Below, piece by piece: positions 6,510-32,229 of a stretch of DNA of 43,580 nucleotides. Below the pieces are notes generated by a model. The model was not told the origin of the DNA. It worked only from the letters and a program-made list of their open reading frames with translations, and did not search any database. The translations under genes and the position numbers were made by a program. Numbering within the stretch: position 1 is the stretch's first letter; every line of letters starts with the position of its first letter. Origin of the DNA: a virus; IMG/VR virus record IMGVR_UViG_3300031351_000221, positions 1 through 43,580 of that record. One strand, written 5' to 3'.

Positions 6510-7457
6510 GTGAGAGTTGTCAAAGCTAGCGCTAGTGCAATCGGGCTATATAATCATTGCCCCTTCTCGTATTTCATGCAGTACATTCTTGGCATGGAAT
6601 CGAGGGCGGGCAAAGCAGCACTCCAGGGTAGCATCGTTCATCAAACTCTGGAGTGGATGATTAAGCTGCGCAAGCGTGGCAAGATCAACGTTGACCCGAT
6701 GTGGTTACTCAATAGAGCGTGGGATGAATTAACTGCGAAATCAAATATCGAAATTCGCAAAGTAACTACCCGCATAGACAAAGATACGGGCAATTTCAAA
6801 GAAGCGGCTGATTTCAAGAAGTGCCGGGTCGCCCTAGAGACAGTGTTGGCTGATCCATATTACAATCCATATCAATTGGCTAATGTTGTTGACGCTGAGC
6901 GGTGGTTTGCTCTTGAGATGCCGCGCGACGAGTGGCTGTGCCTCGATAAAGATGGCAAACCACATCAGTTCACCGTGCGTGGTTTTATCGACCTTATACA
7001 TGAGATTGACGCCGAGACCATCGAGATTGTGGACTGGAAGACGGGTAGCAGGAAAGATTTCTACACTCAACAGCCCATAGATGAAGCTTTGCTTATGAGA
7101 GAGGTTCAGCCGAGGCTGTACCATTTGGCAGCATATTTCTTGTATCCGAAGTACAAGAACATATTGATTACTTTCTACTACACCAACGACGGCGGCCCCA
7201 TAACTATAGCTTTGTCCCAGGAAGATGTTGCTATGACCATAGCGGCACTGCACCGCTTCTTTACGACTATCAGAAAAGACACTCTGATGCGACGTAATCG
7301 CTGGTGGACATGCAGGATGTGCAACTTCAACAAGAACGGTGTGTGTCACCGCGTATGGAGCGATCTACACACACTGGGCGGCGAGTATGTGGAAGACCGT
7401 TACGCGAATCTGGATTGTGAAAGCCAGTTGGCTCTTGGTCAACCAGTGGAGGCATAA
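6510..7457 (+). CDS. PD-(D/E)XK exonuclease, RecB/Cas4-like with probable Fe-S cluster
   Basis: A 315-aa nuclease starting at GTG behind GGAG. The N-terminus SASAIGLYNHCPFSYFMQY is the typical opening of RecB/Cas4-family nucleases (C17). H44 lies in GSIVHQTLEWM. D161 in VRGFIDLI, and D175 with K177 in IEIVDWKTG, form the catalytic triad, followed by the Q motif QPRLYHLAAYFL (200-211). The C-terminal C268, C271 and C279 (WWTCRMCNFNKNGVC) together with C17 match the four-cysteine Fe-S clamp of Cas4/AddB. It lies between the replication genes and DnaE, so end processing in recombination or replication is likely. No CRISPR array is present, so it is not a CRISPR adaptation gene. Confidence 0.8.
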   Translation: MRVVKASASAIGLYNHCPFSYFMQYILGMESRAGKAALQGSIVHQTLEWMIKLRKRGKINVDPMWLLNRAWDELTAKSNIEIRKVTTRIDKDTGNFKEAADFKKCRVALETVLADPYYNPYQLANVVDAERWFALEMPRDEWLCLDKDGKPHQFTVRGFIDLIHEIDAETIEIVDWKTGSRKDFYTQQPIDEALLMREVQPRLYHLAAYFLYPKYKNILITFYYTNDGGPITIALSQEDVAMTIAALHRFFTTIRKDTLMRRNRWWTCRMCNFNKNGVCHRVWSDLHTLGGEYVEDRYANLDCESQLALGQPVEA

Positions 7458-7975
7458 TGCCAAAAGAGCAGTGGAAAGATGTTGTTGGATATGAGGGACT
7501 TTATCAGGTATCTGATATGGGACGGGTAAAAAGTCTTGTTCGTAAAAATCGTAGGACTGAGATCATATTGAAGTGCTCTGCTGATGAAGACGGATATCTC
7601 CGAGTTGGACTTAAACCACCTCGACACTCTCAACAATTTTTCTATGTACACCGACTGGTTTTGGAAGCATTTGTCGGCCCCCAGCCACCAACAATGAGAT
7701 GTCGTCATTTGGATGGTAATCCAAAGCATAATTTGCTGAAAAATCTTAGATGGGGAACTTATATAGAAAACGAGGGTGATAAGAGAAAACATGGGACAGT
7801 TAGTATTGGTTCCCATAGGCCATTGGCTAAATTAACCGACATAGACGTAATTGAGATAAAGACGTTGGCAACCAAAGGAATTTCTCAACGAAAAATTGCA
7901 GCAAAATTCAATGTGTGCCAACATACAATATGCCAAGTAATAAACAAACAAACTTGGAGACATGTTAATGTGTAA
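7457..7975 (+). CDS. NUMOD4-HNH homing endonuclease with C-terminal HTH
   Basis: A 172-aa free-standing homing endonuclease. It has a NUMOD4 start (EQWKDVVGYEGLYQVSDMG), an HNH_3 core (VHRLVLEAFVG, then RHLDGNPKHN and LRWGT) and a C-terminal helix-turn-helix (GISQRKIAAKFNVCQHTICQV, about residues 138-158). It starts on the last base of the nuclease stop and overlaps the DnaE start by 14 nt, so it sits precisely between two essential-looking genes without cutting either. A paralogue of the same architecture is at 26211-26732. Visibly more AT-rich than the flanking replication genes, as expected for a recent invader. Confidence 0.85.
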   Translation: MPKEQWKDVVGYEGLYQVSDMGRVKSLVRKNRRTEIILKCSADEDGYLRVGLKPPRHSQQFFYVHRLVLEAFVGPQPPTMRCRHLDGNPKHNLLKNLRWGTYIENEGDKRKHGTVSIGSHRPLAKLTDIDVIEIKTLATKGISQRKIAAKFNVCQHTICQVINKQTWRHVNV

Positions 7976-10900
7976 TACATATGCGCCTCTTCATTGCCAC
8001 TCGTATTACAGCTTGTTGGATGGACTTTGTTCACCAAAGGAGATTGTAGACCGTTGTGTTGAGTTGGGGTTGCCAGCTTGCGCCATTACAGACCATGGGG
8101 GAATTGCGGGGATGAAGGTCTTTTATGACGCTGCCAGAAAAAAGAAAGTGAAACCCATTATTGGGTGTTGTTTGCCTGGCCAAGAAATTATAACTGAAGA
8201 TGGTGTAAAAAATATAGAAGATATCAACCCGCGAGATCGCGTATTAACACACAAAGGCAGATACCAAAGTGTTACAAGAACCATGTCGCGTCCAGTTAAC
8301 AATGAATTAATCTATGGTTTTGAATTATGGGGCGGTAGAACAATATGGGTTACCGGTGAACATCCACTACTCACAAGAATATCCGAGGATGGGTACACAT
8401 CAAAAACCCAATGGATGCGTGCAGATCAAATTAAATATTGCAAACACCAGAACAAAAAATTGCAATGGGGCAGCTACTTAGCCATGCCAGTTCACGAAAG
8501 TCATCCAAATGTGCCAATCTGTGCAATGGAAATGATTGGATGGGACAAACCATACCATCAATCTAATGGAAAAATATCAAAATTGGTCAACAATAATAAT
8601 CAACACGACACAAATATAGGTAAGTCTTTTGATTTTCCATACATTGAATTAGACGATGATTTAGCATTTATGATTGGTGTTTTTATAGCAGAAGGATCAT
8701 TTCAAAAAACATCCTATGGACCCCATACCGGAATCATTACGCTGAATATTAACGAAAGAAATTTATCGTTAAAATGCAGAAATGCATTGCGATATTTAGG
8801 AATTAATACGAAAGAAACACTAAGACCAGATAAATCTATCAGAGAGATAAGGTTCCATCACACTATATTTTGTAAGATATTGGAAGGACTTGTAGGTAGT
8901 GGAGCTAAGGATAAACGAATGCATCCTGTGTTGATGCAACAATCACCACATATTACAAAACAATTGATAGAGGGTGTTTTAGCAGGAGATGGTTCTAAAG
9001 GCAAAACTGGATCAGAGATACTGAAATTAGCTAATCGTACTCTGGTATGGCAAATTAGAACTCTGCTGACTAAGTTCGGATATACATCGCGTGTAACTAC
9101 AATTAAAGACCATGAAAAATTGGCATGGTGCATTCAATGGAAGTGGTCGTCAGTCAGGTATACAAAATGCGACAACAAATATGTTTATTTGCCAATACGT
9201 GAAATTTATATCAAAAGCTATACAGGAACAGTATATAATTTCGAAGTAGACGAAGATCATTCATATGTTAGTGATGTCATTTTGCATAACTGCGAAATGT
9301 ATATTTGCGAACAGGAAGCTGATATCAAGAACACCAGCAACAATAAGCGACATCACTTGATAGTGCTTGCTAAGAATGATCAGGGCATCAAAGACTTGAT
9401 GGGTTTGGTCAGCGAATCAAATCTGCCAGACTACTTCTACCGCCGACCACGTATCCATCTCGCTGGTATTGCCCCGTTTGCCAAGCGTGGCAATCTGATT
9501 TTCCTCACCGCATGTATCGCAGGCGAATTGCCGATGTCGCTATTTAGTGATTTCAAAGCAGCAGTTATTGCTGGTCGCAACGGGAACGTCCAAGGTGCAA
9601 GAGCATACCTGCGGCCCAACTGGAAAGACGTGGGTAAAGCCATCATCCATAAACACATAGCCACCTTCGGTAGAGGCAATTACTACCTAGAACTTCAGGA
9701 TGAGGGGATGGGTATTCAGACCCTAGTGGTTGAATGTTTACGAGAACTCGGCAAGGAAACAGGAGTACCGACAGTAGCGACAATCGATTCCCACTACGCC
9801 CGGAGAGAAGACGCAGAAGATCAACGACTATTGTTATATGCTCAGTTGCATACGACCAAGGAAGAGCAGGATCGGAAGATTGCTAGCGGCCAAGATGTTA
9901 TGGACTTTTTCACTTCCGATCGATATTACATTCCTTCATATGACGAAATGAGAAAACATTTCACAGAAGCAGAGCTTCAGACGACTTTGGACATTGCGGA
10001 TCAGATTGAATACTCATCTCTAGGCCACAACCCATATCTTCCGATCTTTACCAACGAAGAATCAAAAACCCTTGGTCTAAATTCGAATGAATATCTAAAA
10101 TACCTGTGTATCGAGGGTGCCAAGACGAAATTGACACATCTCAACGCACAGCAGAAACGAACCTATTGGGAGCGTCTACAGCGGGAACTCATTGTCATCA
10201 TGGAGGCTGGGCTGGCTGACTACTTCCTTATTGTATGGGATGCATGTCGCTTTGTAGACGAAAGGAATGGCCCCAGAGGCAAGGGGCGGGGCTCTGGTGC
10301 TGGCTCGTTGGTCAACTATCTGACAGGAATCACAGGCATTGATCCAATCGAATATGGGCTGTACTTTGAGCGATTCTACAACATGAGCAGGAACATCCCT
10401 CCCCACTTTGATGTCGGGCAAACGGATTTTATGTCATGGATGTCGGACAACTTTGAGATGTTGCACACTCGTGACATAGATGCCGAACGGAAGGCGGTAG
10501 CTACGCACCTAGCCAGACGAATGAAGCAGGGAAAAACCGAATTCACCGACATGATGCGAGAAGAGGTAGAGTGGATCGATGAAAAGAATCCTCGCATGTG
10601 GATGTACCTGTACGATATGATCCATGACAAGCCAGCAGAAAACCCATCGAATTCGCACTTGGCCTATGGACTCGGCATGACTCTAGTGGGCCGCGAAGAA
10701 CTGGATGCCAACCGCAGGGTTAAAACTCACGATGGACATATCAGTCTACCGGATATCGATACAGATATCGGCGTTGTGTTTCGTAGCGAAGTCATTGCAT
10801 ATCTCAAAGAACGATGGGGTGAGGAATATGTCGCCCAGATGATCACATTCGGTCGTCTACAGGGCAAAGCTGCTCTCAAGGAAGTGTTCCGGGCTCATCC

Positions 10901-11405
10901 AGATACAGTCAAGCATCTGATGAGGGTCAAAGCGGTGAAAGAAGGCAAGGATGCTAACGATATTAATATGACACCGCATGATCTATGCAATGACATAACA
11001 CAGTACATACCCGATGAGGCTAGTATCGCAGATGAATTGCAGCAAGCACGAGCAGAACAAGGTGATGACTACGGTATTCTACAGTGGGCTGTCCACAATG
11101 TTGAGCAGGTTCAGGTTGCTTATGAATGGTATAAACCGCTATTCGATCAAGCTATGAGGATAGAAGGAACAAAAAAATCACAATCTAGACACGCTGCCGG
11201 TATCGTAATTGCAGGTAGACCCATCGCCGAATTGGTTCCATTGTCCTACGATGCAAAGAATAAGGATCGCGTAGTGGGCCTAGAAATGCATAATGCCGAA
11301 GATATGGGTGCTGTAAAATTTGACTTTCTTGGTGTTGTAGCACTGGATAAGCTTTGGAAAGCTCAGGATTTAATCAATCAAAATGAAAAGGGGATAGAAA
11401 CATGA
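7962..11405 (+). CDS. dnaE: DNA polymerase III alpha (DnaE), N-terminal half with intein
   Basis: N-terminal part of a split C-family replicative polymerase: 1147 aa, about 773 after intein removal. The PHP domain opens with PLHCHSYYSLLDG (HxH at 11-13) and continues ACAITDHGG. An intein interrupts it at PIIG/CEMY. The catalytic core shows GRGSGAGSLVNYLTGI, then LPDIDTDI with D931 and D933, QMITFGRLQGKAA, and the third catalytic Asp D1121 in KFDFLG. About 115 residues are inserted between ERFYN and LPDID, where E. coli DnaE has five. The protein ends about 25 residues after D1121, where E. coli runs on into the fingers; that continuation is encoded at 18169. Start could be ATG 7962 or 7968. 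Confidence 0.92.
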   Translation: MLMCNTYAPLHCHSYYSLLDGLCSPKEIVDRCVELGLPACAITDHGGIAGMKVFYDAARKKKVKPIIGCCLPGQEIITEDGVKNIEDINPRDRVLTHKGRYQSVTRTMSRPVNNELIYGFELWGGRTIWVTGEHPLLTRISEDGYTSKTQWMRADQIKYCKHQNKKLQWGSYLAMPVHESHPNVPICAMEMIGWDKPYHQSNGKISKLVNNNNQHDTNIGKSFDFPYIELDDDLAFMIGVFIAEGSFQKTSYGPHTGIITLNINERNLSLKCRNALRYLGINTKETLRPDKSIREIRFHHTIFCKILEGLVGSGAKDKRMHPVLMQQSPHITKQLIEGVLAGDGSKGKTGSEILKLANRTLVWQIRTLLTKFGYTSRVTTIKDHEKLAWCIQWKWSSVRYTKCDNKYVYLPIREIYIKSYTGTVYNFEVDEDHSYVSDVILHNCEMYICEQEADIKNTSNNKRHHLIVLAKNDQGIKDLMGLVSESNLPDYFYRRPRIHLAGIAPFAKRGNLIFLTACIAGELPMSLFSDFKAAVIAGRNGNVQGARAYLRPNWKDVGKAIIHKHIATFGRGNYYLELQDEGMGIQTLVVECLRELGKETGVPTVATIDSHYARREDAEDQRLLLYAQLHTTKEEQDRKIASGQDVMDFFTSDRYYIPSYDEMRKHFTEAELQTTLDIADQIEYSSLGHNPYLPIFTNEESKTLGLNSNEYLKYLCIEGAKTKLTHLNAQQKRTYWERLQRELIVIMEAGLADYFLIVWDACRFVDERNGPRGKGRGSGAGSLVNYLTGITGIDPIEYGLYFERFYNMSRNIPPHFDVGQTDFMSWMSDNFEMLHTRDIDAERKAVATHLARRMKQGKTEFTDMMREEVEWIDEKNPRMWMYLYDMIHDKPAENPSNSHLAYGLGMTLVGREELDANRRVKTHDGHISLPDIDTDIGVVFRSEVIAYLKERWGEEYVAQMITFGRLQGKAALKEVFRAHPDTVKHLMRVKAVKEGKDANDINMTPHDLCNDITQYIPDEASIADELQQARAEQGDDYGILQWAVHNVEQVQVAYEWYKPLFDQAMRIEGTKKSQSRHAAGIVIAGRPIAELVPLSYDAKNKDRVVGLEMHNAEDMGAVKFDFLGVVALDKLWKAQDLINQNEKGIET
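8169..9290 (+). mobile_element. LAGLIDADG intein in the DnaE PHP domain
   Basis: In-frame protein splicing element of about 374 aa. It begins CLPGQEII (intein block A), has block B WVTGEHPLLT with TxxH, two LAGLIDADG helices (FMIGVFIAEGS and LIEGVLAGDGS), block F VYNFEVDEDHSYV, and ends ILHN before Cys+1 of CEMY. Two adjacent Cys codons (8166-8171) leave the first intein residue uncertain: alignment to other block A motifs favours the second Cys, whereas restoring the expected IIGCEMY extein favours the first. All splicing residues are present, so it should be active, and the endonuclease domain looks intact. Confidence 0.9.
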
Positions 11406-12172
11406 ATGAAAATATAGCAAAACAAATCGAAGCTTTAAATCCATGGTTTTATGATCTAACCATTGGTCGAACGACAGTTATTCCTGGTATTGGATCGCCG
11501 CATTCGCCAGAGCAATTGATATCCGACACGCAATATAAGAGAGAAATTTTGGTAGACGCTATTGCCAAACGATATAATTTTAGAGGTAAAAAAATATTAG
11601 ATATTGCTTCAAATTGTGGATATTGGTCATCATATTATGCTAATTTAGGGGCAGCATATCTACTTGCCGTTGAGGGTCGTGAGAAATTTGTAGCACAAGG
11701 CAATTTATATTGGCAATATGGTCAATTTTCCCAAAATACTGTATATCAATTTTTGCTTGGTGACATTAATAATAAAAATACATGGAAAATAATAAAAGAT
11801 CGATCTCCGTTTGATTTTACCCTTTGTTGTGGTATTTTATATCATATTCAAGATCACCATTTACTTCTGCAACGAATTGCTTCGGTGACAAGGGAGGCTA
11901 TTTTAATTGACACTCGAATTAGCGATCAAGGATCACATGATACTAATCCATTTACCGAAATTGGTGACTGGAAATTCGATGGCATAGATCGTCCCAACGG
12001 TAAAAAAGCCTTAGCGGCACATCCGACACTTGATTCATTACAAAATTTCTTCATAAATCATCATTATGACATTGAAATCATTCGATCCTCCACACCGGTG
12101 CATCGATTAATGTATCCAAAAGATAATTATGATTTGGGTAGGCGTGTAACTTTGTTATGTAAGAGAAAGTAA
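11402..12172 (+). CDS. Class I SAM-dependent methyltransferase
   Basis: A 256-aa Rossmann methyltransferase. Motif I is KKILDIASNCGYWSSYYA (64-80), motif II region is LLAVEGREKF, and motif IV/post-motif is DFTLCCGILYHIQDHHLLL followed by a β-strand AILIDTRI. This layout resembles DUF1698/CmoB-like and FkbM-type methyltransferases associated with glycan clusters. It is the first gene of the cassette that splits DnaE and overlaps the DnaE N-half stop as ATGA, so it is read from the same transcript. It is visibly AT-rich compared with upstream genes. The substrate is unknown; a sugar or peptide group is likely from the neighbours. Confidence 0.75.
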   Translation: MNENIAKQIEALNPWFYDLTIGRTTVIPGIGSPHSPEQLISDTQYKREILVDAIAKRYNFRGKKILDIASNCGYWSSYYANLGAAYLLAVEGREKFVAQGNLYWQYGQFSQNTVYQFLLGDINNKNTWKIIKDRSPFDFTLCCGILYHIQDHHLLLQRIASVTREAILIDTRISDQGSHDTNPFTEIGDWKFDGIDRPNGKKALAAHPTLDSLQNFFINHHYDIEIIRSSTPVHRLMYPKDNYDLGRRVTLLCKRK

Positions 12173-13092
12173 TGGTAAATGTTGTTTTTATAGAATTAAC
12201 TAATTATTGTAATTGTCGATGTCGATCATGTCCACAGTCAATCGGTCTATTAAGGCCACAAGGATATATGGATTTTGATTTGTTCAAAAGGACAGTGGAC
12301 CAAGCGTGGACCGTATCATCAACCATTAATCTTTCATTTTTTGGAGAACCAACTCTGCATCCAAAATTTTTACAATGTTTGCAATATTTGCAAAAACGAC
12401 CGACAGGAAAATCGGTAGTAATATTTTCTAATTTTCTGTGTGTAACCAAAGATATGATGGATGAAATAATACGCACTACTCCAAGTAGAGTACACTTGAG
12501 TATAAATGCAGCAACAGCACCAACCTATAATGCAATTCGTTATGGGAAATTTTGTGTTGACCTTGACGGAAGAATTCATACAGATAATCGATTTGAAATA
12601 TTATGCAATAAAGTAATTCACTGGTTTAATATTCCTAATCATCCTACAACCAGACATGAATTTACAGTTGCTAGTTATAGTGTTCATGAACTAAAAGCCT
12701 TCGTGCAAAAATGGTTGCCATTTTTAAGAGATAACGACGAAATTTTAACCAAAGCCATCCTAAGTTATGGTGGTGTTATGTTAAATGAACCATTTTTAAT
12801 TTCGTCGCCATGTGGAATGTGGGGGCCACAGAATTACCTCGTTATTGACTGGCAAGGTAATGTAAGTCCGTGCTTTTTAGATAATGATATGAAACTTATA
12901 ATTGGTTCAATTTTACAAGATTCACTTAGAAATATTCAAACTAGTCAGACAAGAAAGAATATTAGAAAACAATCTTTAGCTCGTATGATCAAACCGTGTG
13001 ACACTTGTTTGGACGCCTCTCACAGCATCAAAACTAGAATATATAAAGTTGGATCATTGTGGAACGATATACATTTGGAGGATTGGTCGTGA
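12172..13092 (+). CDS. Radical SAM protein with SPASM-like C-terminus
   Basis: A 306-aa radical SAM enzyme. The [4Fe-4S]/SAM motif CxxxCxxC is C13, C17, C20 (NYCNCRCRSC), followed by the SAM-contact strand LSFFGEPTLHP. A C-terminal cysteine set, with SSPCGMW, GNVSPCFLDND and KPCDTCLD, looks like an auxiliary SPASM cluster. Overlaps the methyltransferase stop (TAATG). Radical SAM/SPASM proteins in glycan loci often modify sugars or peptides, but substrate specificity cannot be read here. The coding region is AT-rich. Confidence 0.8.
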   Translation: MVNVVFIELTNYCNCRCRSCPQSIGLLRPQGYMDFDLFKRTVDQAWTVSSTINLSFFGEPTLHPKFLQCLQYLQKRPTGKSVVIFSNFLCVTKDMMDEIIRTTPSRVHLSINAATAPTYNAIRYGKFCVDLDGRIHTDNRFEILCNKVIHWFNIPNHPTTRHEFTVASYSVHELKAFVQKWLPFLRDNDEILTKAILSYGGVMLNEPFLISSPCGMWGPQNYLVIDWQGNVSPCFLDNDMKLIIGSILQDSLRNIQTSQTRKNIRKQSLARMIKPCDTCLDASHSIKTRIYKVGSLWNDIHLEDWS

Positions 13093-13964
13093 AAAATGAT
13101 AAAATAGCAATTATTACTCCTGTGGGAAATGAAAATCAATCTATCATGATAATGTACAAAAAACTTCTTAAAGTACATTGGCATTTATGGATAACTGTTA
13201 TTGATTCATTTTGTCAAGATGGTTCAGACGTTAAACTTTTACAGTTAGCAAAACATGATCCTCGTATCATTATTTTGCACATCGGAAAAGGAACTGGCGT
13301 AGCTAATGCATATATTAGCGGAATACAACATGCAATTAAATTAGATGCTACTAAAATAATTGAAGTTGACATCGGACATCCTGTCGAATTAATACCACAT
13401 TTTACAAAATTGCTAGATAGGGTTCCATTGGTGGTGGGCACAAGATTTGAGGGTGGAAAATTTATCAACGTATCTCTTAAGAGAAAAATACTGAGCAAGG
13501 GTGGAACCATTCTTGCCCGTTTTATATTGCAACTGCCATTTTCAGATTGCACAAGTGGTTTACAAGGGTTTACGAACAGGGTAGCCAAAGATATACCATT
13601 CGATCAATTTCAGTCTACAGGTCATTTTTATCAAACAGAATTCAAATTCTATTGTCAATATTTACCATTTGTGGAAGTGCCATTTACCTATATCGGAACG
13701 AAATCTTCTGTCAAAACATCTGCGGTAAAAGAATCGTTGCGTATTCTGTTTCGTCTAGCAAAACAATCTGTTCGGACTATTTTATCTGGAGATTACACAC
13801 CAATGTCAAATAATCGTGAAGAATTATTGGTATTAATTAGGGACGATTTACAACGTTTGGTTGGTAATGAAAAACATATAATTAGTTATCATCTTGAATC
13901 TATATTGCATAGAATACTGGCAAGATTGATCTATTTAATAGAAATGGATATAGAAGGTGAATAA
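13089..13964 (+). CDS. Glycosyltransferase family 2, polyprenyl-phosphate type
   Basis: A 291-aa GT-A glycosyltransferase. The start is GTG 13089, overlapping the previous stop and preceded by a GGAGG 7 nt away. The N-terminal IAIITPVGNEN is the GT2 nucleotide-binding strand, TKIIEVDIGHP stands in for the DxD region, and PLVVGTRFEGG with FSDCTSGLQGF is typical of dolichyl/polyprenyl-phosphate mannose or glucose synthase-like enzymes. No transmembrane C-terminal domain is seen. It probably transfers a sugar from a nucleotide donor to a lipid or glycan acceptor. Confidence 0.75.
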   Translation: MKNDKIAIITPVGNENQSIMIMYKKLLKVHWHLWITVIDSFCQDGSDVKLLQLAKHDPRIIILHIGKGTGVANAYISGIQHAIKLDATKIIEVDIGHPVELIPHFTKLLDRVPLVVGTRFEGGKFINVSLKRKILSKGGTILARFILQLPFSDCTSGLQGFTNRVAKDIPFDQFQSTGHFYQTEFKFYCQYLPFVEVPFTYIGTKSSVKTSAVKESLRILFRLAKQSVRTILSGDYTPMSNNREELLVLIRDDLQRLVGNEKHIISYHLESILHRILARLIYLIEMDIEGE

Positions 13965-14670
13965 TAAGATTTGTATTTTTCTTCATGTTCCAAAATGTGC
14001 AGGAACTTCTATCGTACATTCTATGACACACAAATTAAACAAAGATGTTTTTGTAGCGAAAAGCCACGGAACCGAACAATACATGCCTATTGACATGTAT
14101 TTATCATTATTCAAACATGTACCAATTAAGGCTTTCGATGCAAAAATAATAGCTGGACATCTATTGTTCGGATTACATCGTCAAACAAAAAAATCCTGCA
14201 CCTATATAACGATGATGAGACACCCAGTAGATCGTTTATGGTCACAATATTGTTATATGCGAAAACTTGGTATTAACAACAAACGCTGTAGAGGATGCGA
14301 TACTTTAGTCAATAGTGAAATGAGTTTTGAAACTTTTATATCACTACCAGGGCCATTACCATTAGGCAATTTTGGTTGTATACCAAACCTACAAACTTTG
14401 ATAATAGCTGGAGAACAGTCTTCAACTATGTTAGACAAAGCTAAACAAAATATAAAGAATTATTTTACTATCATAGGCGTACAAGAACAATTTGAACATT
14501 TTAAGGCAAAATTATCTCAATATTTGGGAATATCATTATCTAATTTATGGCTTAATAAAAAAAATGATCCACAATCTGATGATATATTATCAATAAAAAT
14601 AAAAAACAAAATAAAACAACGAGATGTTTTAGATATAGAATTATATAATTATGTTAGGGGGATATTATGA
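13957..14670 (+). CDS. Sulfotransferase family protein
   Basis: A 237-aa protein with GTG start overlapping the previous stop. The 5'-phosphosulfate-binding motif is FLHVPKCAGTS (8-18), and the 3'-phosphate-binding motif is MRHPVDRLWSQY (87-98); both are diagnostic of PAPS-dependent sulfotransferases of the Sulfotransfer_2 type. The likely reaction is transfer of sulfate from PAPS to a carbohydrate hydroxyl, in line with its place in a glycosyltransferase operon. A PAPS supply would have to come from the host. Very AT-rich. Confidence 0.78.
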   Translation: MNNKICIFLHVPKCAGTSIVHSMTHKLNKDVFVAKSHGTEQYMPIDMYLSLFKHVPIKAFDAKIIAGHLLFGLHRQTKKSCTYITMMRHPVDRLWSQYCYMRKLGINNKRCRGCDTLVNSEMSFETFISLPGPLPLGNFGCIPNLQTLIIAGEQSSTMLDKAKQNIKNYFTIIGVQEQFEHFKAKLSQYLGISLSNLWLNKKNDPQSDDILSIKIKNKIKQRDVLDIELYNYVRGIL

Positions 14671-15341
14671 TGGTTACAGTAACGTACCTTAGCCGAAATG
14701 CACCACAACGGTTAGCTAATAGTTTGGTAACAGTAGCAGAACAAAGTATCAAGCCAGCAAAAATCATTGTTGCTGATTGTAGTGATGATATTGACCTGAT
14801 AAGAACAGTAACAAAACAATTTTGTAAGAAATATCCCATACCATGTGAATTGCAGTGGCGACCAGTGGCAGAATTAAGTCGGTCGCAAGGAAGACAGTTA
14901 GGTAGGCAATATGTTGAAACTCCAATAATGATTAGCACTGAATGTGACATATTGTGGCCTCCGACAATTTTGGAAGAATCAATCAAATTTTTTGGAAATA
15001 TGGATCAAAAAATTTACGTACAACCATATATAGCCGCTTATAATGAGAGCGGAACACTTTCTGTCGTTCACAAGGATCATCGATCTGGTTTTTATCAAAT
15101 GTTTAGAGTATGCGATTTTGATGCCATAGGAGGTTATAATCCATTTTTACAAGGATGGGGATTTGAAGATGCTGATTTTAGAGACCGTCTTATTCAATAT
15201 GGATGTAAGAAAAAAATAGTTCCATTGGTGGTTAAACACCAATGGCATCCAACAAGTGCATCTCCTAAAAATAATCTACAAAATCAACAAATAGCTAAAC
15301 AAACATATTGGGATGGTTCGGAATGGAGAAGGAAATCATAA
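14667..15341 (+). CDS. Glycosyltransferase family 2 with galactosyltransferase-like C-terminus
   Basis: A 224-aa GT-A enzyme. It starts VTVTYLSRNAPQRLANSL, a GT2 opening, with KIIVADCSDD as the second strand. STECDI is the likely metal-binding region. FLQGWGFEDADFRDRL (about 165-180) is the acceptor-side motif seen in chondroitin-synthase and galactosyltransferase C-terminal domains. Overlaps the sulfotransferase stop. Predicted cytosolic; acceptor unknown. Confidence 0.75.
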   Translation: MMVTVTYLSRNAPQRLANSLVTVAEQSIKPAKIIVADCSDDIDLIRTVTKQFCKKYPIPCELQWRPVAELSRSQGRQLGRQYVETPIMISTECDILWPPTILEESIKFFGNMDQKIYVQPYIAAYNESGTLSVVHKDHRSGFYQMFRVCDFDAIGGYNPFLQGWGFEDADFRDRLIQYGCKKKIVPLVVKHQWHPTSASPKNNLQNQQIAKQTYWDGSEWRRKS

Positions 15342-16073
15342 ATGTCTGTAATAAAAGATGTTACATTAATTATTAAAACTTTTGAGCGACCATCCTGTGT
15401 ACAACGATTAGTCGCCAGCATACGACAATTTTATCCTAGTATTCATATTATTGTTGTCGATGATAGTAAGCAAGCAGTACCTATTGCGGATACTGAATAC
15501 TATATATTACCATTTGCTACTGGTGTTTCTATAGGCAGAAACTTGGCCGTATCCAAGGTGAAAACTAAATATTTTATGACATTGGATGATGATTTTATTT
15601 TTACTAAAGATACAAATTTGCAAATTAGATACAACGTTTTGGAACATAGTGATATAGATATTGTTGGAACAAATGTATCCGATAATCAGAGTCGTAAAGG
15701 AATGTTGATTTGTATACAAAATGGCATATTGTATCGTTGGAATGGATCGAAAGGAATATCTTGTGGTTATCAGTTGTATGATTACGTACCACAATGCTTT
15801 ATGGCTAGAACACAGAAATTTCAAAAGGCTGGTGGCTGGGACAATGATTTTCTAGTATGGGATCATGAAGCGATGTTTCTTCAGATTCACGGTAAACTTA
15901 AAATTACTATGTTGCCAATAATTGACATATTACATAAACAAGCAAGTAATTCAACATATAAAAATCACAGATGGGGAGCAACGCTAGAAGCAGATAGAGC
16001 GCGATTAAACAAAAAATATAATATTCACACAAATAAACTTTTAGAAAGTCCTCCGGGATGGAGAAATAAATGA
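15342..16073 (+). CDS. Glycosyltransferase family 2
   Basis: A 243-aa GT-A enzyme. VTLIIKTFERPSCVQRLV opens the fold, HIIVVDDS is the second strand, and FMTLDDDFIF carries the metal-binding DxD. The later WDNDFLVWDHEAMF block is typical of GT2 enzymes similar to β-1,4-N-acetylgalactosaminyltransferases. A GGAGAAGGA ribosome site lies just upstream. Last intact transferase before the damaged HNH gene. AT-rich. Confidence 0.75.
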   Translation: MSVIKDVTLIIKTFERPSCVQRLVASIRQFYPSIHIIVVDDSKQAVPIADTEYYILPFATGVSIGRNLAVSKVKTKYFMTLDDDFIFTKDTNLQIRYNVLEHSDIDIVGTNVSDNQSRKGMLICIQNGILYRWNGSKGISCGYQLYDYVPQCFMARTQKFQKAGGWDNDFLVWDHEAMFLQIHGKLKITMLPIIDILHKQASNSTYKNHRWGATLEADRARLNKKYNIHTNKLLESPPGWRNK

Positions 16074-16089
16074 CATAAAAAACAAAATA

Positions 16090-16154
16090 ATGTTCAATAA
16101 ACACAATCATAGCAAAAAGGTCAATGGTCTGACACATATAAACGATGAACACGA
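16090..16154 (+). pseudogene. Frameshifted N-terminus of the adjacent HNH endonuclease
   Basis: An ATG at 16090 reads MFNKHNHSKKVNGL, matching the usual HGL-type start of phage HNH endonucleases. The continuation that joins the downstream frame (DTYKR-stop-TRMIRRC) is in another frame and has TGA at 16146-16148 where homologues have Trp. One frameshift and one nonsense change therefore separate this piece from the rest of the gene. Confidence 0.5.
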
Positions 16155-16547
16155 ATGATTAGACGATGCACTAATACAAAAGATATAAGTTATCAAAATT
16201 ATGGAGATCGAGGGATTAAAGTTTGTGAGCAATGGAGGAAATTTGAAAACTTTTTAATAGATATGGGGGAACCACCTACCGATAAACATCAAATAGATAG
16301 AATAGACAATAATGGTAATTATTGTCCAGATAATTGTAGATGGGCTACACCAAAGGAAAATTCTAGGAATAGACGTGATAGCATTATTATAATATACGAT
16401 AATCAGACACAACATTTGAAAATTTTAGCAGAAAAATTTGATATAAATTATCACACTTTATGGAATAGAATATATAAACATAATTGGCCAATAAAAAAGG
16501 CTTTAACAATACCAGTTAAAAAACACAAAAGCAGGAGTAAAAAATGA
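16155..16547 (+). CDS. HNH homing endonuclease, N-terminally broken
   Basis: A 130-aa open frame with an HNH core: YGDRGIKVCEQW, then DKHQIDRIDNNGNYCPDNCRWAT and a C-terminal DNA-binding repeat ending WPIKKALTIPVKK. Free-standing phage enzymes of this family have about 20 more N-terminal residues. These are present upstream but out of frame and interrupted, so the product is either a shortened protein from ATG 16155 or inactive. It sits inside the DnaE-splitting cassette and could mark how the cassette moved. AT-rich. Confidence 0.72.
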   Translation: MIRRCTNTKDISYQNYGDRGIKVCEQWRKFENFLIDMGEPPTDKHQIDRIDNNGNYCPDNCRWATPKENSRNRRDSIIIIYDNQTQHLKILAEKFDINYHTLWNRIYKHNWPIKKALTIPVKKHKSRSKK

Positions 16548-17308
16548 AAAATATATGGATGTTTTGGAAAAACCCACCAGGACAAACAAATCCTCCAGCC
16601 TACATAAAACTTTGTATGGAGACTGTTAATAAACATTGTAATACAGATTTTGATATTAACTTAGTAACTACTGAAAATGTTAAACACTTTTTGCCGAACA
16701 TCTCTCCAATGTTTTTTAAAATTGCTCAGATAAATAATCTTTCAAATTATTTGCGGTATCACTTGTTGCGTGAACACGGTGGAATTTGGCTCGACGCAGA
16801 TGTAATTCTATTCAAAAGTCTGAAACCGACGCTTGATCTATTAAGAGATGGAATTGATCTGGTGGCAACCGCATCTCCTACACTCAGATACGGAGAACCA
16901 GAGAGCGGATTTCTTCTGTCCACCAAAGGCGGTGCGACGATCACCAAGGCCGTCTCTTTGATTGAATACGCTTTAAGCCTTCACCCACCAGGACATATCT
17001 TCAAATGGGGGTCGCTGGGTCCGGGCACGGTCAGACAAGCTGTCAAGGGGCGCAAGTACCACCATCTCGACCATCGGCTGCTAATGCCAATCGCATCATG
17101 GGAAGCATTTAGATTCGAAGGTAAGGAATCAATAGACAAGTATTGTAATGATAAATCGTTTGGAGTTATGTTGTTCCACCAGATGTTTAAACAAAGTAAT
17201 AGTAAATTTTTATCAATGTCCAGAGAGCAATTGCTAAATTCGCCAACATTGTTGGGAGGTATTTTCAGAATGGCGATTGAAAAGGCAGGGGTGAATAATG
17301 ACATGTGA
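16544..17308 (+). CDS. Capsular polysaccharide synthesis-like glycosyltransferase (GT32/Caps_synth)
   Basis: A 254-aa GT-A transferase. IWMFWKNPPGQTNPPAY opens the fold, and LSNYLRYHLLREHGGIWLDADVILF (66-90) holds the DAD metal motif typical of Gly_transf_sug / Caps_synth enzymes. Overlaps the HNH end. Composition changes inside the gene: the first ~300 nt are AT-rich like the preceding cassette, about 16880-17110 is GC-richer like the replication backbone, then AT-rich again, suggesting mosaic origin. Donor and acceptor are unknown. Confidence 0.75.
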   Translation: MKNIWMFWKNPPGQTNPPAYIKLCMETVNKHCNTDFDINLVTTENVKHFLPNISPMFFKIAQINNLSNYLRYHLLREHGGIWLDADVILFKSLKPTLDLLRDGIDLVATASPTLRYGEPESGFLLSTKGGATITKAVSLIEYALSLHPPGHIFKWGSLGPGTVRQAVKGRKYHHLDHRLLMPIASWEAFRFEGKESIDKYCNDKSFGVMLFHQMFKQSNSKFLSMSREQLLNSPTLLGGIFRMAIEKAGVNNDM

Positions 17309-18128
17309 TGAGAATCGAACATGCTTCATGACAGTAGCTAATCAACCATACCAAAAATATGTCCCATGGTTCCTGTATTTCCTAAACAGAGCATATCCAG
17401 AAGCACATAAGTTAGTGCTTCTCGACGTTGCATTAACAGACAACATCCGCCAGATGCTCACTTTATTGTCGGGCAACTTCGAGGTACGAGAGCGAGCCTT
17501 TCCGGCATACACTCATACGGACGCCAATACAATCAAATGCCTCCGGTGGTTGACTTTCGAACCAGCCTTCGAACAGTACGACTGCATGTCTATCGGCGAC
17601 GTAGATATGGCGACCTATGTTGAGAATCCATCGTACATGGATCAGCATCTCGCACATTGCAACCAGCTAGGAATCCCGTACAGTAATTTTATCAGACCGC
17701 CACAGGCCGGGCCGAGACGGATGGGCGGCATCCATGTCGTCAAACCAAGAGAGTGGTTTGCGGCGATGCTACCCATAATCAATAAGTATCGCCCAATGCT
17801 TAAAGCCGGTCAAATTCACCTTCCAAAACAGGGTTTTAACGAACAACTCCTGCTACGCATGGTATTGGAATCAAGCCTGGGAGAACCACCTGCCAACCTG
17901 TCCAAAACATATTGGCTCTCACTAGCAACATCGAATCACCACGGTACGCATATTCGACTTGCTGAATGTGGTGGCATCAGGGGACTCAAAGGAGCAAGAG
18001 GTTATCGGGATCACAAGCCCGAAATTTTAGCCGCTGTCAAAACACCTCTGTTTCAACGGTTATCAGCCATGTCCCCACAAATTGGTGGCATCCTGGTAGC
18101 AATCGCACGCGCATATGAAAATTTCTAA
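17298..18128 (+). CDS. Putative GT-A glycosyltransferase
   Basis: A 276-aa protein that looks like a nucleotide-diphospho-sugar transferase. CFMTVANQPYQKYVPWFLYFLN resembles the N-terminal half of GT8-like folds, and YDCMSIGDVDMATYVE holds a DVD metal motif after a hydrophobic strand; GGIHVVKPREWF follows as in such enzymes. It is GC-richer than the genes before it. Overlaps the previous stop. Last gene before the DnaE C-half, ending 40 nt upstream of it. Family assignment is by fold pattern only. Confidence 0.6.
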   Translation: MTCDENRTCFMTVANQPYQKYVPWFLYFLNRAYPEAHKLVLLDVALTDNIRQMLTLLSGNFEVRERAFPAYTHTDANTIKCLRWLTFEPAFEQYDCMSIGDVDMATYVENPSYMDQHLAHCNQLGIPYSNFIRPPQAGPRRMGGIHVVKPREWFAAMLPIINKYRPMLKAGQIHLPKQGFNEQLLLRMVLESSLGEPPANLSKTYWLSLATSNHHGTHIRLAECGGIRGLKGARGYRDHKPEILAAVKTPLFQRLSAMSPQIGGILVAIARAYENF

Positions 18129-18130
18129 TT

Positions 18131-18163
18131 TTGTGGAATAACCGACTGACTTAGAGGTATAAT
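18131..18163 (+). promoter_or_regulatory. Promoter-like element before the DnaE C-half
   Basis: TATAAT at 18158-18163 lies 17 nt downstream of GGAATA (18135-18140). The same arrangement, with 22 of 33 identical positions and the same spacing, precedes ssb at 20999-21031, and both directly follow a TAA stop. The -10 box is only 5 nt from ATG 18169, so a transcript from here would be nearly leaderless, a point against simple promoter function. Confidence 0.45.
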
Positions 18164-18168
18164 GTGGT

Positions 18169-20997
18169 ATGATCGAGTTTACCAATTGCAAGTGCAACGT
18201 TGAGAAGGGTAAATTTAGTATCAACGATATCCCTCTGGATTGCCCTGCTGTGTGGCGGCTGATCGCTGGTGGTCATACGGTTGGTGTTTTTCAACTTGAG
18301 AAGAATCTAGGACAGGATTGGGCCAAAAAGGTACGTCCCAATAATATCGAGGAACTAGCGGCGCTCGTGAGTCTTCTTCGACCTGGGCCGTTAGAATGTA
18401 TCGGAGAAAACACGCTCATCACACGGCGAAGAGAGGGTCGTGGTGCAAATAAGTGTGGATATTCTAATTACCGCTCAACTATTAAAGAATTATATAATCA
18501 ATATTGTGAAGTGCAAAAACATTATACCAAAATGAGAGGATTGAGCGAGAATCATCCTTGTTCAAAGTTATCCCAGAATCAAGTCAGTCAAATCAAAAGA
18601 TTATTGAATGATGGCCAACTGACACAAAAAGAAATTGCCCAAAAATTCGGAGTCCAGCAGTATACAATCAGTAGAATAAAACGCGGAAAATCATATGATA
18701 GCAATAAGGTTATTAGCAGCGAGATAACAAAAAAATTAAATATTATTTCAGTAGATACTCAAAGTGGAAAATTAATAAACAATAAAATCGAAGCCGTTTT
18801 GTTTAAGGGGAGGGGTAGTGTTTACTCTGTTAGGGTACGAACTAGCTGGACTTTTGCTGCTCAAGCTAGCTGGCTCGATATTCGCGCGACAACCAATCAC
18901 TGCTTTTTAACTTTAAGAGGGTGGAAACAGTTGGGGGACATAAAGCCTGGTGATTATGTCGCAATTTTCACCGGTAAAAGAGGCGGAACTATAAGAAAAG
19001 ATAATTCTGGAGCACATATCCAAGGATACAAAAATTTTAGAAATATAGCATTTTACAATTGGCAATATAATTGTGCATGTTGTAATTGGCAGGAAGCTTC
19101 ATTAGACGTAAATCATCTAGTAGGAAATAGATATACAAATAATAACGCAGATAATTTAGCCTGGCTGTGTCCGAATCATCATAGAATGTATACAGATGGA
19201 AAATTATCTGAAAAAACTATCCGTGAAATGAGGGAAAAATATAGATTGCCTCAAATATCCGATACTCGTTTTGTACGAGTAGAAGAAATTAAATATGAAG
19301 GAGAAGAAAATTTATACGACATAGCCGTGGAAGGCCCACACAATAATTATTTAGCTGGTAATTTTGTGGTTCATAATTCTGGGATGTCTCAAGATTATGT
19401 CGATATCAAATTTGGTCGCAAGAAACACTCGTATATTCACCCATCCTTGAAACCAATTCTTGAACAGACTTACGGTTGTATGGTCTATCAGGAACAGGCA
19501 ATCAAAATTGCTACTGATATAGCTGGTTTTAGTCCTGAAAATGCCGATCAACTTCGGTCCGCCATTGGTAAGAAAAAACCTGAACTCATGGCAAAACTCA
19601 AAAGCAAGTTCACCCAGGGTGCTCAGGAACATGGAAAAATAGCTCGCGGCATAGCTGAAGAAATATTCGGCTGGATCGAAAAATGCCAAAGGTATAGCTT
19701 CAATTTGTCACATGCTGTATCTTATGCTATGATAAGTTATCAAACAAGTTGGTTAAAGTGCCACTTCCCGCACGAATTCTTCACCAGCTACCTGACATAT
19801 TCACAGTACAAAAGCGATCCCAAGGAAGAAATTTATAAACTGGTACAGGACGCCAGACTTTTTGGCGTAGATATTCTGCCCCCGGATATCCGCCGTGGGA
19901 ATATCCACTTTCAGATGACCGAAAAACCACAGAAAGGCGTAGCATTCGGTCTGGCGCACATCAGGGGTGTCGGAGCCTCTGCCATCGAGAAGATCATCTC
20001 AGCAGCCTCTACAATACCAGGAACGGGCTCTCTGGAGACCTGGGCCAGCTTCCTCGCAGCAGTTCCAGACTTCCACAGAAATGTTGGGATTGCCCTCATC
20101 AAATCGGGTGCCTGTGATTGTTATCAGATGGATCGTAGCGAAATGGTGCGCGAGCTTGAGGTAATACTTGGCACAACCGCCCATAACTCGACCGGCAAAA
20201 GGGTTGAGATCAAGGGGCTGACCAATAAAGAGAAAATGTACTTTTTCGAACAGCTACGACAAGGTGCGATGACTACCCAAGAGATTCTGGTCCAGATGGC
20301 TCAGCCCCCAGGCGAAAAGACCAAGACGATGAATCAGATGATCAAGAAAGAGCTTGTAGCCGCAGCAATTGGATATCTCGATCAGGCCGGGTCTGCGTTT
20401 GATGGCATCGTGGATGGGGATAGTAAATTCGTGTACACGTATCCCGCAGAGAAAGAAGCTTGGCTCGGAGCCATTGGTAATCGCACCAAGAAACAGATCG
20501 AAGAATTGATGATCCAGAATGGCTATCAGGATATAGTAGTCAAGCCACCTTGCAACAATGATGCTCGACGAAGAATAGTAGCCGCCAAAGCTGCGATGCT
20601 TGAGACACCCCTTGATGATAACAGCACGGCCATCGCTGCCGCTGAAAAGCACTTCCTGGGTATAGCTCTTTCGTGTTCTCCAGCCGACGATGCCGATGAC
20701 AGTTTGGCAACTCACACCTGTTTAGAAGTCGCAAAAGCACCGAATAATGAAGATATTGTTGTTTGTGTTATTATCGATGGTGTTAAGCATACGAAAACTA
20801 AACGAGGAAGCAATCCCGGTCAGTCTATGTGCTTTCTGACAATATCCGACTCGACTTATTCAATTGACCATGCAGTTGTTTTTCCTGACGCATTTGAACG
20901 ACTAAAAGCATTTTGTAAGGATGACTTGATCTGTTTGATTTACGGGCAGAAGAAAAACGGTAGCTTCATTATTTGTAATATACAAAAATTGATGTAA
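18169..20997 (+). CDS. dnaE: DNA polymerase III alpha (DnaE), C-terminal half with intein
   Basis: C-terminal part of the split polymerase: 942 aa, about 615 after intein removal. It starts MIEFTN and reaches the fingers at INDIPLDCPAVWRLI and VGVFQLE, which in E. coli directly follow the KFDFLG region found at the end of the 7962-11405 product. After RPGPLE/SGMS (intein site) come YGCMVYQEQAIKIA, FNLSHAVSYAMISYQTSWLKCHFP and FGLAHIRGVGASAIEKI. A C-terminal OB domain (VCVIIDGVKHTKT to CNIQKLM, about 860-942) closes it. No catalytic Asp is in this half, so it must pair with the N-half to work. ATG 18169 is the only start that keeps the homologous region. Confidence 0.9.
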   Translation: MIEFTNCKCNVEKGKFSINDIPLDCPAVWRLIAGGHTVGVFQLEKNLGQDWAKKVRPNNIEELAALVSLLRPGPLECIGENTLITRRREGRGANKCGYSNYRSTIKELYNQYCEVQKHYTKMRGLSENHPCSKLSQNQVSQIKRLLNDGQLTQKEIAQKFGVQQYTISRIKRGKSYDSNKVISSEITKKLNIISVDTQSGKLINNKIEAVLFKGRGSVYSVRVRTSWTFAAQASWLDIRATTNHCFLTLRGWKQLGDIKPGDYVAIFTGKRGGTIRKDNSGAHIQGYKNFRNIAFYNWQYNCACCNWQEASLDVNHLVGNRYTNNNADNLAWLCPNHHRMYTDGKLSEKTIREMREKYRLPQISDTRFVRVEEIKYEGEENLYDIAVEGPHNNYLAGNFVVHNSGMSQDYVDIKFGRKKHSYIHPSLKPILEQTYGCMVYQEQAIKIATDIAGFSPENADQLRSAIGKKKPELMAKLKSKFTQGAQEHGKIARGIAEEIFGWIEKCQRYSFNLSHAVSYAMISYQTSWLKCHFPHEFFTSYLTYSQYKSDPKEEIYKLVQDARLFGVDILPPDIRRGNIHFQMTEKPQKGVAFGLAHIRGVGASAIEKIISAASTIPGTGSLETWASFLAAVPDFHRNVGIALIKSGACDCYQMDRSEMVRELEVILGTTAHNSTGKRVEIKGLTNKEKMYFFEQLRQGAMTTQEILVQMAQPPGEKTKTMNQMIKKELVAAAIGYLDQAGSAFDGIVDGDSKFVYTYPAEKEAWLGAIGNRTKKQIEELMIQNGYQDIVVKPPCNNDARRRIVAAKAAMLETPLDDNSTAIAAAEKHFLGIALSCSPADDADDSLATHTCLEVAKAPNNEDIVVCVIIDGVKHTKTKRGSNPGQSMCFLTISDSTYSIDHAVVFPDAFERLKAFCKDDLICLIYGQKKNGSFIICNIQKLM
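18397..19377 (+). mobile_element. HNH intein in DnaE (RPGPLE/SGMS site)
   Basis: In-frame intein of 327 aa. It begins CIGENTLIT, has block B RATTNHCFLT, block F LYDIAVEGPHNNYL and ends VVHN before Ser+1. The insertion is an HNH nuclease (CACCNWQE, SLDVNHLVG, WLCPNHH at about 19072-19190) with a helix-turn-helix (LTQKEIAQKFGVQQYTISRI, about 18619-18678). Its endonuclease differs in class from the LAGLIDADG intein in the other half, so the two inteins have separate origins. Splicing residues are all present. Confidence 0.9.
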
Positions 20998-21502: not shown

Positions 21503-22090
21503 ATGAGACGTAAGCAGTCATTAAATCGATTCATTGTTTGCTTGGCAAAGAGAATTGCGACTATTTATCCCAGCAATTGTGCCGACGAAAAAGACTACGT
21601 CCAAATCGGACATTTGACACTAGCAGAAATCAACAGGGGTGAACATAAGCATCGCAATTTCCGTGCATACGCAATTGTGGCAATAGCTAATACAATGCGG
21701 AATGCCGCTTTAGATGCGATGTTCGCTGCGTCTGCTCCACGAAGAGTGAAAAAGCAGGTGTACGAAATAAAGATGCTCCTTGCTGCTGGCAAGACAAAAC
21801 AGGAGATATGCAAAAAATTGAATATCACCCCAAGCACACTTGCCAATCTACGATCGCTCATCTTCACGGAATCTTGGCACATGCTGTTCCAAGAGCCAAC
21901 GAGAGAGTCAGAACCGTTTTCTGTTCTCGATGACCTTTTGTCGTCTGGCGATTTGACTGCGGAGGATCGGGCCTTTCTCAAGGCAAAGTTCAGCGGTACT
22001 TCTGACAATCTCGGCCTGAGTCGGAAACAACTGTATTCAAGGGTAAAAAGCCTAAGACCAAAACTGGCACGGAGTGGTTATGGAATCTGA
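21503..22090 (+). CDS. Phage sigma-70-like RNA polymerase sigma factor
   Basis: A 195-aa protein with a sigma region 2-like N-terminal half (DEKDYVQIGHLTLAEINRG, then FRAYAIVAIANTMRNAALDA, about 27-75) and a C-terminal helix-turn-helix with GKTKQEICKKLNITPSTLANL (about 95-115). A further helical stretch ends LSRKQLYSRVKSL. Such proteins redirect host RNA polymerase to phage middle or late promoters. It is weakly similar to known sigmas by eye, hence moderate confidence. It overlaps the following glycosyltransferase by 11 nt. Confidence 0.65.
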   Translation: MRRKQSLNRFIVCLAKRIATIYPSNCADEKDYVQIGHLTLAEINRGEHKHRNFRAYAIVAIANTMRNAALDAMFAASAPRRVKKQVYEIKMLLAAGKTKQEICKKLNITPSTLANLRSLIFTESWHMLFQEPTRESEPFSVLDDLLSSGDLTAEDRAFLKAKFSGTSDNLGLSRKQLYSRVKSLRPKLARSGYGI

Positions 22091-25016: not shown

Positions 25017-25032
25017 CAGGAAGTAAATTTCC

Positions 25033-26214
25033 ATGAAAATATGTTATTTGGGTGTTTATCGAGACGGCAGTGGCTATGCTGTCCAATCTATTAACAACAT
25101 GCTCGCCATGGAAGCTGGTGGCATAGATGTCGTAGCGAGAGCCATCAAACTGTCTCCACAGAGCAACCATGAACTGGCCAAGAGAGTTGAGCATCTTGAA
25201 CAAAAAACCACCGACGACGTAGATGTTGTTGTGCAGCATGTGTTACCGCACCAATTCGAATACAAGGCTGGTGTTAGAAACATAGGCATGTTCGACTGGG
25301 AAACAACTCATTTCGGCAGGTCGAACTGGGGACACTGCTGTAACCTGATGGACGAAATATGGGTGCCATCAACACAAAATGCCCAGGCAGTTAAGGATAG
25401 CAATGTCTCTGTGCCAGTCAAGATTTTTCCATGTGCGTGTGACACGACCAGATTCGACAACCCCCCCACACCACTTGAAATCAAGAAGCTCAAAAACAAG
25501 TGCGTGTTCTATGTGATCGGGGAGATGACTCGTCGCAAGAATCTAGTAGGGGTCTTGAGGGCGTTCTACACAGCCTTTACGCTCCGAGATGATGTGGCCC
25601 TTGTCATCAAAACCAGCGTCCCAGGTAAATCCCCGGATGAAGCCACAGAATTGTTGCGGTCAACCATCGATGATGTGAAAAAATCGTTGCATACATACGT
25701 TCGACATCCATACTATCCACCGGTAGTTTGCATTACAGATTTTCTCCCAGATCAGAAGCTCGATCAGCTTCATGTAGCTTGTGATGTTTTCGTTCTAGCA
25801 AGTCACGGAGAAGCCTGGGGTATCCCAGCACACGACGCAATGGGATTTTGTAATCCGGTGATACTGAGCAATTGGGGATCATTCCCAGAGTTGACATATC
25901 CACAGGCCGCTGAATATTGGGAGCCAGAAACACATAGATTCAAATGGCCTGGCGAGATTGATTGTGGCTGGCTAATCAAAGGCCAATTAACTCCATGTTT
26001 CGGACACACAAACAGCTTCCCCGATCTTTATACTGGAGAAGAATATTGGTTTGATCCAGATATGGAACACCTGATTCACTGCATGAGGCAGGCATACTCA
26101 GAATGGCAAGATGGTTTTTTGTCTGCTAGGCAGCGAGCGGCCCAAAGGCGTGCAAGAGAATTCAGTCACGAGAAAGTTGGGCGGATAGCCCAAGAATTGC
26201 TGAAAACAAGATGA
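25033..26214 (+). CDS. GT-B glycosyltransferase, GT4 family
   Basis: A 393-aa GT4-type transferase. MKICYLGVYRDGSGYAVQS opens the first Rossmann domain, CVFYVIGEMTRRKNLVGVL opens the second, and HGEAWGIPAHDAMGFCNPV is the donor-binding ExxxxxxxE region. GC-richer than the intein-bearing gene before it. It starts 16 nt after that gene and its stop overlaps the following HNH start. Acceptor unknown; probable cytosolic enzyme using a nucleotide sugar. Confidence 0.82.
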   Translation: MKICYLGVYRDGSGYAVQSINNMLAMEAGGIDVVARAIKLSPQSNHELAKRVEHLEQKTTDDVDVVVQHVLPHQFEYKAGVRNIGMFDWETTHFGRSNWGHCCNLMDEIWVPSTQNAQAVKDSNVSVPVKIFPCACDTTRFDNPPTPLEIKKLKNKCVFYVIGEMTRRKNLVGVLRAFYTAFTLRDDVALVIKTSVPGKSPDEATELLRSTIDDVKKSLHTYVRHPYYPPVVCITDFLPDQKLDQLHVACDVFVLASHGEAWGIPAHDAMGFCNPVILSNWGSFPELTYPQAAEYWEPETHRFKWPGEIDCGWLIKGQLTPCFGHTNSFPDLYTGEEYWFDPDMEHLIHCMRQAYSEWQDGFLSARQRAAQRRAREFSHEKVGRIAQELLKTR

Positions 26215-26732: not shown

Positions 26733-26741
26733 GAGAAAACA

Positions 26742-27761: not shown

Positions 27762-27772
27762 GGAGACAAACA

Positions 27773-31875: not shown

Positions 31876-32228
31876 CTTGGGTTGATCTTTGTTTTTAGAT
31901 CGTTCTCCATGCGCTCCATCAATGCTTTGAGCACATGGACATCAGTACGTAAATCGCCAACGGTTGTATTGAGGCGGGCGATATTATTTTGTAGTTGGGT
32001 CATATGGGCCGCTATAATTTCTGTATAGCGGTCCATTTCTTTTTCAACATTCAACTCATTGGTATCTTGTTTTCTACTAATGGTGGTAATACGCACATTA
32101 GTTGCAGTAATGGCATCTTTAATTTGCTGTTTTTCTGCCCCTATCGAAAAAGCTGTACCAAGAGCCCCACCTAAAATGCCTATAACAAGACCAATCACGC
32201 CATAAAGAGTATGTTGCTTTTTTGTCAT
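31872..32228 (-). CDS. Membrane-anchored coiled-coil protein
   Basis: A 118-aa protein. A hydrophobic, Gly-rich segment near the N-terminus (LYGVIGLVIGILGGALGTAF, residues 8-27) should span the membrane. The rest is a long coiled coil (KQQIKDAITATNVRI through LMERMENDLKTK). Small phage proteins with this plan include holin-associated and spanin-like proteins and XhlA-type haemolysins, but no lysin is next to it, so a lysis role is only possible. It ends the minus-strand module, with its stop overlapping the convergent plus-strand stop. GGAGG ribosome site immediately upstream of the ATG. Confidence 0.6.
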   Translation of the reverse strand: MTKKQHTLYGVIGLVIGILGGALGTAFSIGAEKQQIKDAITATNVRITTISRKQDTNELNVEKEMDRYTEIIAAHMTQLQNNIARLNTTVGDLRTDVHVLKALMERMENDLKTKINPS

Positions 32229-32229
32229 C

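Follow-up and report, generated by a model that had tools for sequence, protein, structure and literature searches.

Bacteria copy their chromosomes with family-C DNA polymerases, in which alpha is one large chain. The viral IMG/VR record IMGVR_UViG_3300031351_000221 (positions 1 to 43,580, the whole stretch of 43,580 nucleotides analysed here and referred to as the window) carries dnaE in two separate open reading frames (ORFs), 6.76 kb apart. This locus raises the question of how such a polymerase works and what divided its gene. Our answer, held with high confidence, is that the two genes encode two chains of one family-C (DnaE) replicase which assemble non-covalently, that the gene was split in a single ancient event and that the cassette now present between the halves is a later tenant.

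7962..11405, plus strand: dnaE-N, PHP domain and palm with all three catalytic Asp, carries intein 1
18169..20997, plus strand: dnaE-C, fingers, helix-hairpin-helix region and C-terminal OB fold, carries intein 2
11402..18128, plus strand: accessory cassette in the gap, encoding a methyltransferase, a radical SAM/SPASM protein, a GT2 glycosyltransferase, a sulfotransferase, a GT7C-like glycosyltransferase, a second GT2 glycosyltransferase, an HNH endonuclease, a capsule-type glycosyltransferase and a 276-aa protein

Domain content and position of the break

Both halves were found exactly where the original prediction had placed them. The Pfam matches of dnaE-N were PHP and DNA_pol3_alpha, those of dnaE-C were DNA_pol3_finger and HHH_6 (PF02811, PF07733, PF17657 and PF14579 across both halves), and PHP, palm and finger follow each other in the order of DnaE. 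In comparison with solved structures, dnaE-N reaches residue 642 of Taq alpha and dnaE-C begins at residue 644, which corresponds to E. coli residue 584; in a direct alignment, E. coli residue 576 marked the break. The break is thus located in the linker past KFDFLG and no part of the polymerase is missing, as had been claimed. Both the DIDTD motif (residue 931) and the KFDFLG motif (residue 1119) are encoded by dnaE-N, in agreement with the predicted location of all three catalytic Asp in the first half. These palm residues are kept in the window and in all aligned relatives, and the window also retains the nine residues of the PHP metal site. AlphaFold2 models were available for close homologues: the dnaE-N product of L011 (91% identical to that of the window) had a mean pLDDT of 81.1, and the dnaE-C product of L013 (89% identical) a mean pLDDT of 88.4, with bacterial Pol III alpha subunits as best PDB matches. 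The C-terminal OB fold was seen in the latter model.

Distribution and phylogeny of the split

Each half, as well as an alignment of the C halves, served as a query against IMG/VR. The identical break was present in about 70 IMG/VR contigs from many metagenomes, and the split form also occurred in three contigs of metagenome-assembled genomes in GTDB (L100-L102). These three belong to different phyla, and a host call from the genome scan was therefore dropped. In a Virgibacillus locus, DnaE is intact. A tree was calculated from 66 split and 7 intact DnaE sequences. All 66 split sequences formed one clade with a support of 1.0; uninterrupted forms, which the original prediction had proposed to search for, were found only outside this clade, with L030 as the nearest. 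Clade I, which includes the window, has 20 members (support 0.999) and clade II has 45 (support 0.90), while L036 branched at the base of clade I with low support (0.53). The topology points to a single origin of the split, in an ancestor shared by all members of a broad lineage of phages. We found no description of this split-DnaE lineage in the open-licence literature.

Since every sequence is metagenomic, an artefact of assembly or binning had to be considered, and an assembly error had been named as an outcome that would overturn the prediction. The recurrence of this break in about 70 contigs, drawn from many samples and with several different gap contents, refutes an artefact and leaves it a negligible probability.

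Two features at the start of dnaE-C are shared among the relatives.

18169..18219, plus strand: N-terminal extension of dnaE-C, 17 aa, with Cys-x-Cys, candidate docking element
18152..18168, plus strand: TAGAGGTATAATGTGGT, immediately 5' of the dnaE-C ATG

A Cys-x-Cys ahead of the FQLE motif was present in 60 of the 66 split C halves; that this extension helps docking is a guess. A GAGGTATAAT-like sequence upstream of dnaE-C was observed in nearly all clade I relatives and is a candidate for a ribosome-binding site and/or a promoter belonging to dnaE-C itself.

Contents of the gap

The gene content predicted for the gap (methyltransferase, radical SAM, glycosyltransferase, sulfotransferase and HNH) was confirmed by Pfam and by a match to phage HNH endonucleases.

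16155-16547, plus strand: HNH endonuclease, 130 aa, matching phage HNH endonucleases
16544-17308, plus strand: capsule-type glycosyltransferase of the cassette
17298-18128, plus strand: 276-aa protein of the cassette, without assigned family
7457..7975, plus strand: free-standing NUMOD4/HNH_3 endonuclease gene, overlapping the start of dnaE-N

According to the original prediction, the glycan cassette was inserted into an intact dnaE and thereby split it. The exact position of the cassette between the halves and the HNH endonuclease genes in and beside the gap would suit such an event. The relatives, however, refute the cassette as the cause: the same break occurs without glycan genes in the 45 members of clade II and in L036. 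At the break these have a gene for a DnaQ exonuclease, one that is uracil-DNA-glycosylase-like, or no more than 2 nt, which shows that the split is older than the cassette. Its content is also exchanged between relatives, so that it cannot have caused the split. The methyltransferase, radical SAM, GT2 and GT7 genes of the window are common to the distant L027 and L035 but missing from the nearest relatives L005, L011 and L014, whose gap holds another set with weak aldolase-like, cupin, phosphotransferase and methyltransferase family matches. We consider a splitting by the cassette highly unlikely.

In clade I proper the gap measured 5-10 kb in 12 resolved cases; it was shorter in L034 and L044 and is probably larger in L033. 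Nearly all of these gaps encode the capsule-type glycosyltransferase and the 276-aa protein, and the remainder is exchanged. The clade II gap usually comprises about 0.87 kb, with an ORF of about 60 aa and a DnaQ-type exonuclease gene directly before dnaE-C, the latter identified by PF00929 and the PHROG annotation 'DNA polymerase exonuclease subunit'. In several members the reading frames of dnaQ and dnaE-C overlap by a few bases. Larger clade II gaps carry extra genes mostly between dnaE-N and dnaQ, which on inspection of the sequences were aldehyde-dehydrogenase-like, glutamate-dehydrogenase-like, uracil-DNA-glycosylase-like and HNH-like; L037 departs from this, its HNH-like ORF being placed after dnaQ and before dnaE-C. 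An HNH gene was seen in the gap of the window, L005 and L037 but is not a consistent feature of the relatives. The halves of L036 are 2 nt apart and its DnaQ is located elsewhere.

Beyond dnaE-C, an SSB gene and a helix-turn-helix (HTH) gene, the window contains more glycosyltransferase genes and an HNH gene (22074-30363). Because the glycan genes continue past this point, the replication genes appear as islands in a larger sugar-gene locus. The minus strand of 31872-43580 holds large ORFs of up to 918 aa; the ORFs scanned there had no PHROG match and a single sub-threshold Pfam hit, and PHROGs pointed to neither a structural role nor a taxonomic affiliation of the genes at 32.6-43.5 kb.

Selection and proofreading

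Strong purifying selection acts on either half: where dS was not saturated, the ratio of non-synonymous to synonymous substitution rates (dN/dS) was 0.02-0.06, about 0.05, for each of them. Their distance matrices agreed with a Mantel r of 0.97, compared to a maximum of 0.28 in 999 permutations, and more than 50 members have intact reading frames and catalytic residues. Neither a second DnaE palm nor PolA was detected in any member of the split clade among the large contigs tested; PolB was absent from the 12 contigs tested for it, clade II not having been searched for PolB. The original prediction had named pseudogene pieces beside another full-length polymerase as an outcome that would refute it. 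Phages can use the host Pol III, and the halves might accordingly be relics in a phage replicated by the host polymerase. The low dN/dS and the intact frames and catalytic residues contradict this, and we regard decay as extremely improbable.

DnaE polymerases that proofread with their PHP domain are known. A match to the RNase_T/DnaQ family was lacking in most clade I contigs tested, the exceptions being G007 and L036, which fits proofreading by the intact PHP site in this clade. The PHP metal site is destroyed in the dnaE-N of L037-L041, L046, L048 and L050, and DnaQ was present in the gap where inspected. Our observations suggest that DnaQ can relieve PHP proofreading. A general decay of PHP wherever DnaQ is present was rejected, since it affects only some clade II members and most keep the site.

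Inteins in both halves

The original prediction had stated that no intein halves are present at the break. This proved correct for split inteins, but two complete inteins, one per half, had been overlooked.

8166..9290, plus strand: intein 1, 375 aa, LAGLIDADG_3, in the PHP domain between KPIIG and CEMY, inside the PHP metal site
18397..19377, plus strand: intein 2, 327 aa, HNH-like, in the fingers between RPGPLE and SGM
22458-23684: third intein, LAGLIDADG_3, within the group-1 glycosyltransferase gene 22074-25016

The splice-site residues of inteins 1 and 2 are intact (Cys1, terminal His-Asn and +1 Cys/Ser, that is C..HN followed by C and by S, respectively). Intein 1 was found in L005 and is missing from L011, and the relatives L011 and L026 provide empty intein sites. 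More dnaE insertions, several of them intein-like, occupy other sites in L021, L024, L025, L027, L035 and L054, namely in the fingers near FSPE and between FN and LSH, in the palm, and between RPG and C. The dnaE of the split clade is an unusually dense intein target. In relatives, the group-1 glycosyltransferase gene has inteins at the same position as in the window, at other positions, or none.

The frequency of inteins in this polymerase invites the idea that the halves are joined covalently, either by RNA trans-splicing of a split intron or by protein trans-splicing with diverged split-intein pieces. An intein-like ORF of L044, in frame just upstream of dnaE-C, could be taken in its favour. 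However, neither end of the break has intein sequence, be it in the window or in its relatives, and each half has its own stop or start, most N halves of clade I having a tail beyond the break. Rfam introns were also absent, both from the window and from the two isolate loci described below. Covalent joining is, in our judgement, quite improbable. The L044 ORF (L044:9203-9754) lacks the terminal His-Asn and lies 18 nt before dnaE-C, with which it shares the reading frame; it is possibly an intein relic. As the origin of the split it was rejected, being unique and weakly similar to intein 2 (E 4e-6, single comparison).

Comparison with known split polymerases

Apart from the cyanobacterial split-intein pair, split family-C forms are, to our knowledge, limited to scattered cases in phages. 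The cyanobacterial DnaE (Ssp and Npu DnaE inteins) is likewise encoded in two genes, but its parts carry a split intein, of which there is none here, and are joined by trans-splicing at another site, between Y and CFN in the fingers. A closer functional parallel is gp43A/gp43B of the T4-like Aeromonas phages 25 and 44RR, a replicative phage polymerase encoded by two genes and not joined by an intein. The halves of the phage 25 protein co-purify and are active (PMC2988022), a precedent for assembly without splicing. In contrast to DnaE, gp43 belongs to family B with an unrelated fold, its gap is an untranslated spacer or a single homing endonuclease gene, and its split is known from a few phages. 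For group 2.2 jumbo phages, a family-C catalytic subunit in two genes has been proposed to reconstitute the enzyme (Iyer 2021; PMC7824862). That split alpha comprises only the catalytic core and a template-binding domain, with genes far apart and PolB alongside (PMC7824862), whereas the genes described here lie close together, encode the full PHP-palm-finger-OB arrangement with a complete PHP metal site, and had no PolB beside them in the 12 contigs tested.

Among isolated phages in INPHARED, DnaE in two ORFs was found in Cellulophaga phage phiST (KC821604) and Bacillus phage KLEB27-3 (OM634661).

L113:1630-5230: split DnaE of phiST
L111:2967-7337: split DnaE of KLEB27-3, its halves separated by an HNH endonuclease gene

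Their breaks lie near E. coli residues 396 and 614, respectively, compared to 576-584 here, and neither an exonuclease nor a glycan cassette separates the halves. The different positions indicate separate events, so that phage DnaE was split more than once.

A candidate translational bypass in clade II

Many clade II dnaE-N genes encode an N-terminal PLHVHS, then contain an in-frame TAA or TAG with a gap of 8-12 nt, and continue with (H/M)YSLLDG. Further examples are found in loci L114-L172.

L068:6947-6990: stop and gap
L049:6992-7035: stop and gap
L058:6989-7030: stop and gap
L089:6988-7030: stop and gap

The variable length of the gap means that no single frameshift explains the element. 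An exact-pattern scan returned 59 stretches, of which at least 3 of those examined were unrelated sequence; 40 distinct dnaE-N copies with stop and gap were confirmed across all loci, with a patchy distribution on the tree. Take-off site, stop, gap and landing site all lie inside a conserved hairpin with a stem of 14-16 bp and -16 to -24 kcal/mol, compared to a mean of -3.7 kcal/mol over this region in members that lack the insert. Standard pairs made up 98.9% of the hairpin pair cells and at most 53% when the partners were slid; covariation was not observed, as no pair in the hairpin had changes on both sides. Stop, gap and hairpin together constitute a candidate programmed translational bypass inside a replicative polymerase gene, resembling that of T4 gene 60. 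Apparent PHP damage in several clade II members proved to be this element.

Proposed assembly and implications

Taken together, the halves most likely assemble without covalent joining into the replicative polymerase of the phage, which supports the predicted two-gene polymerase. Each half would first lose its intein by ordinary cis-splicing, as the intact intein ends suggest. The PHP-palm half and the finger-OB half may then associate via the natural palm-finger interface, possibly aided by the short structured Cys-x-Cys extension. The seam would later have acquired passenger genes, dnaQ in one clade and exchangeable sugar-modification cassettes in that of the window, the cassette being a tenant of the split rather than its cause. 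The contigs are uncultivated and some of them incomplete, so that a polymerase elsewhere in a genome may have been missed; given the weak placement of L036 in the tree, any of the gap states may have come first.

A more tentative possibility, which we consider somewhat less than evenly balanced, is that the split serves a function by design. The closely packed dnaE-N, DnaQ and dnaE-C of clade II would be one module for a three-chain proofreading polymerase, a family-C core with fingers and exonuclease as separate subunits; the clade of the window would have lost DnaQ from this module, would proofread by its complete PHP site, and its vacated seam would have become an exchange site for cassettes.

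Under the preferred model of two non-covalently assembled chains, a full-length family-C replicase appears to have worked as two polypeptides throughout a broad lineage of phages, with palm and fingers separated exactly at their boundary. In the sister clade, the exonuclease gene at the seam ties the split to proofreading. The locus illustrates how cargo genes and inteins can find a long-lived docking place at a seam within a gene that is essential, and as natural complementing halves the two proteins make the domain assembly of DnaE directly testable.
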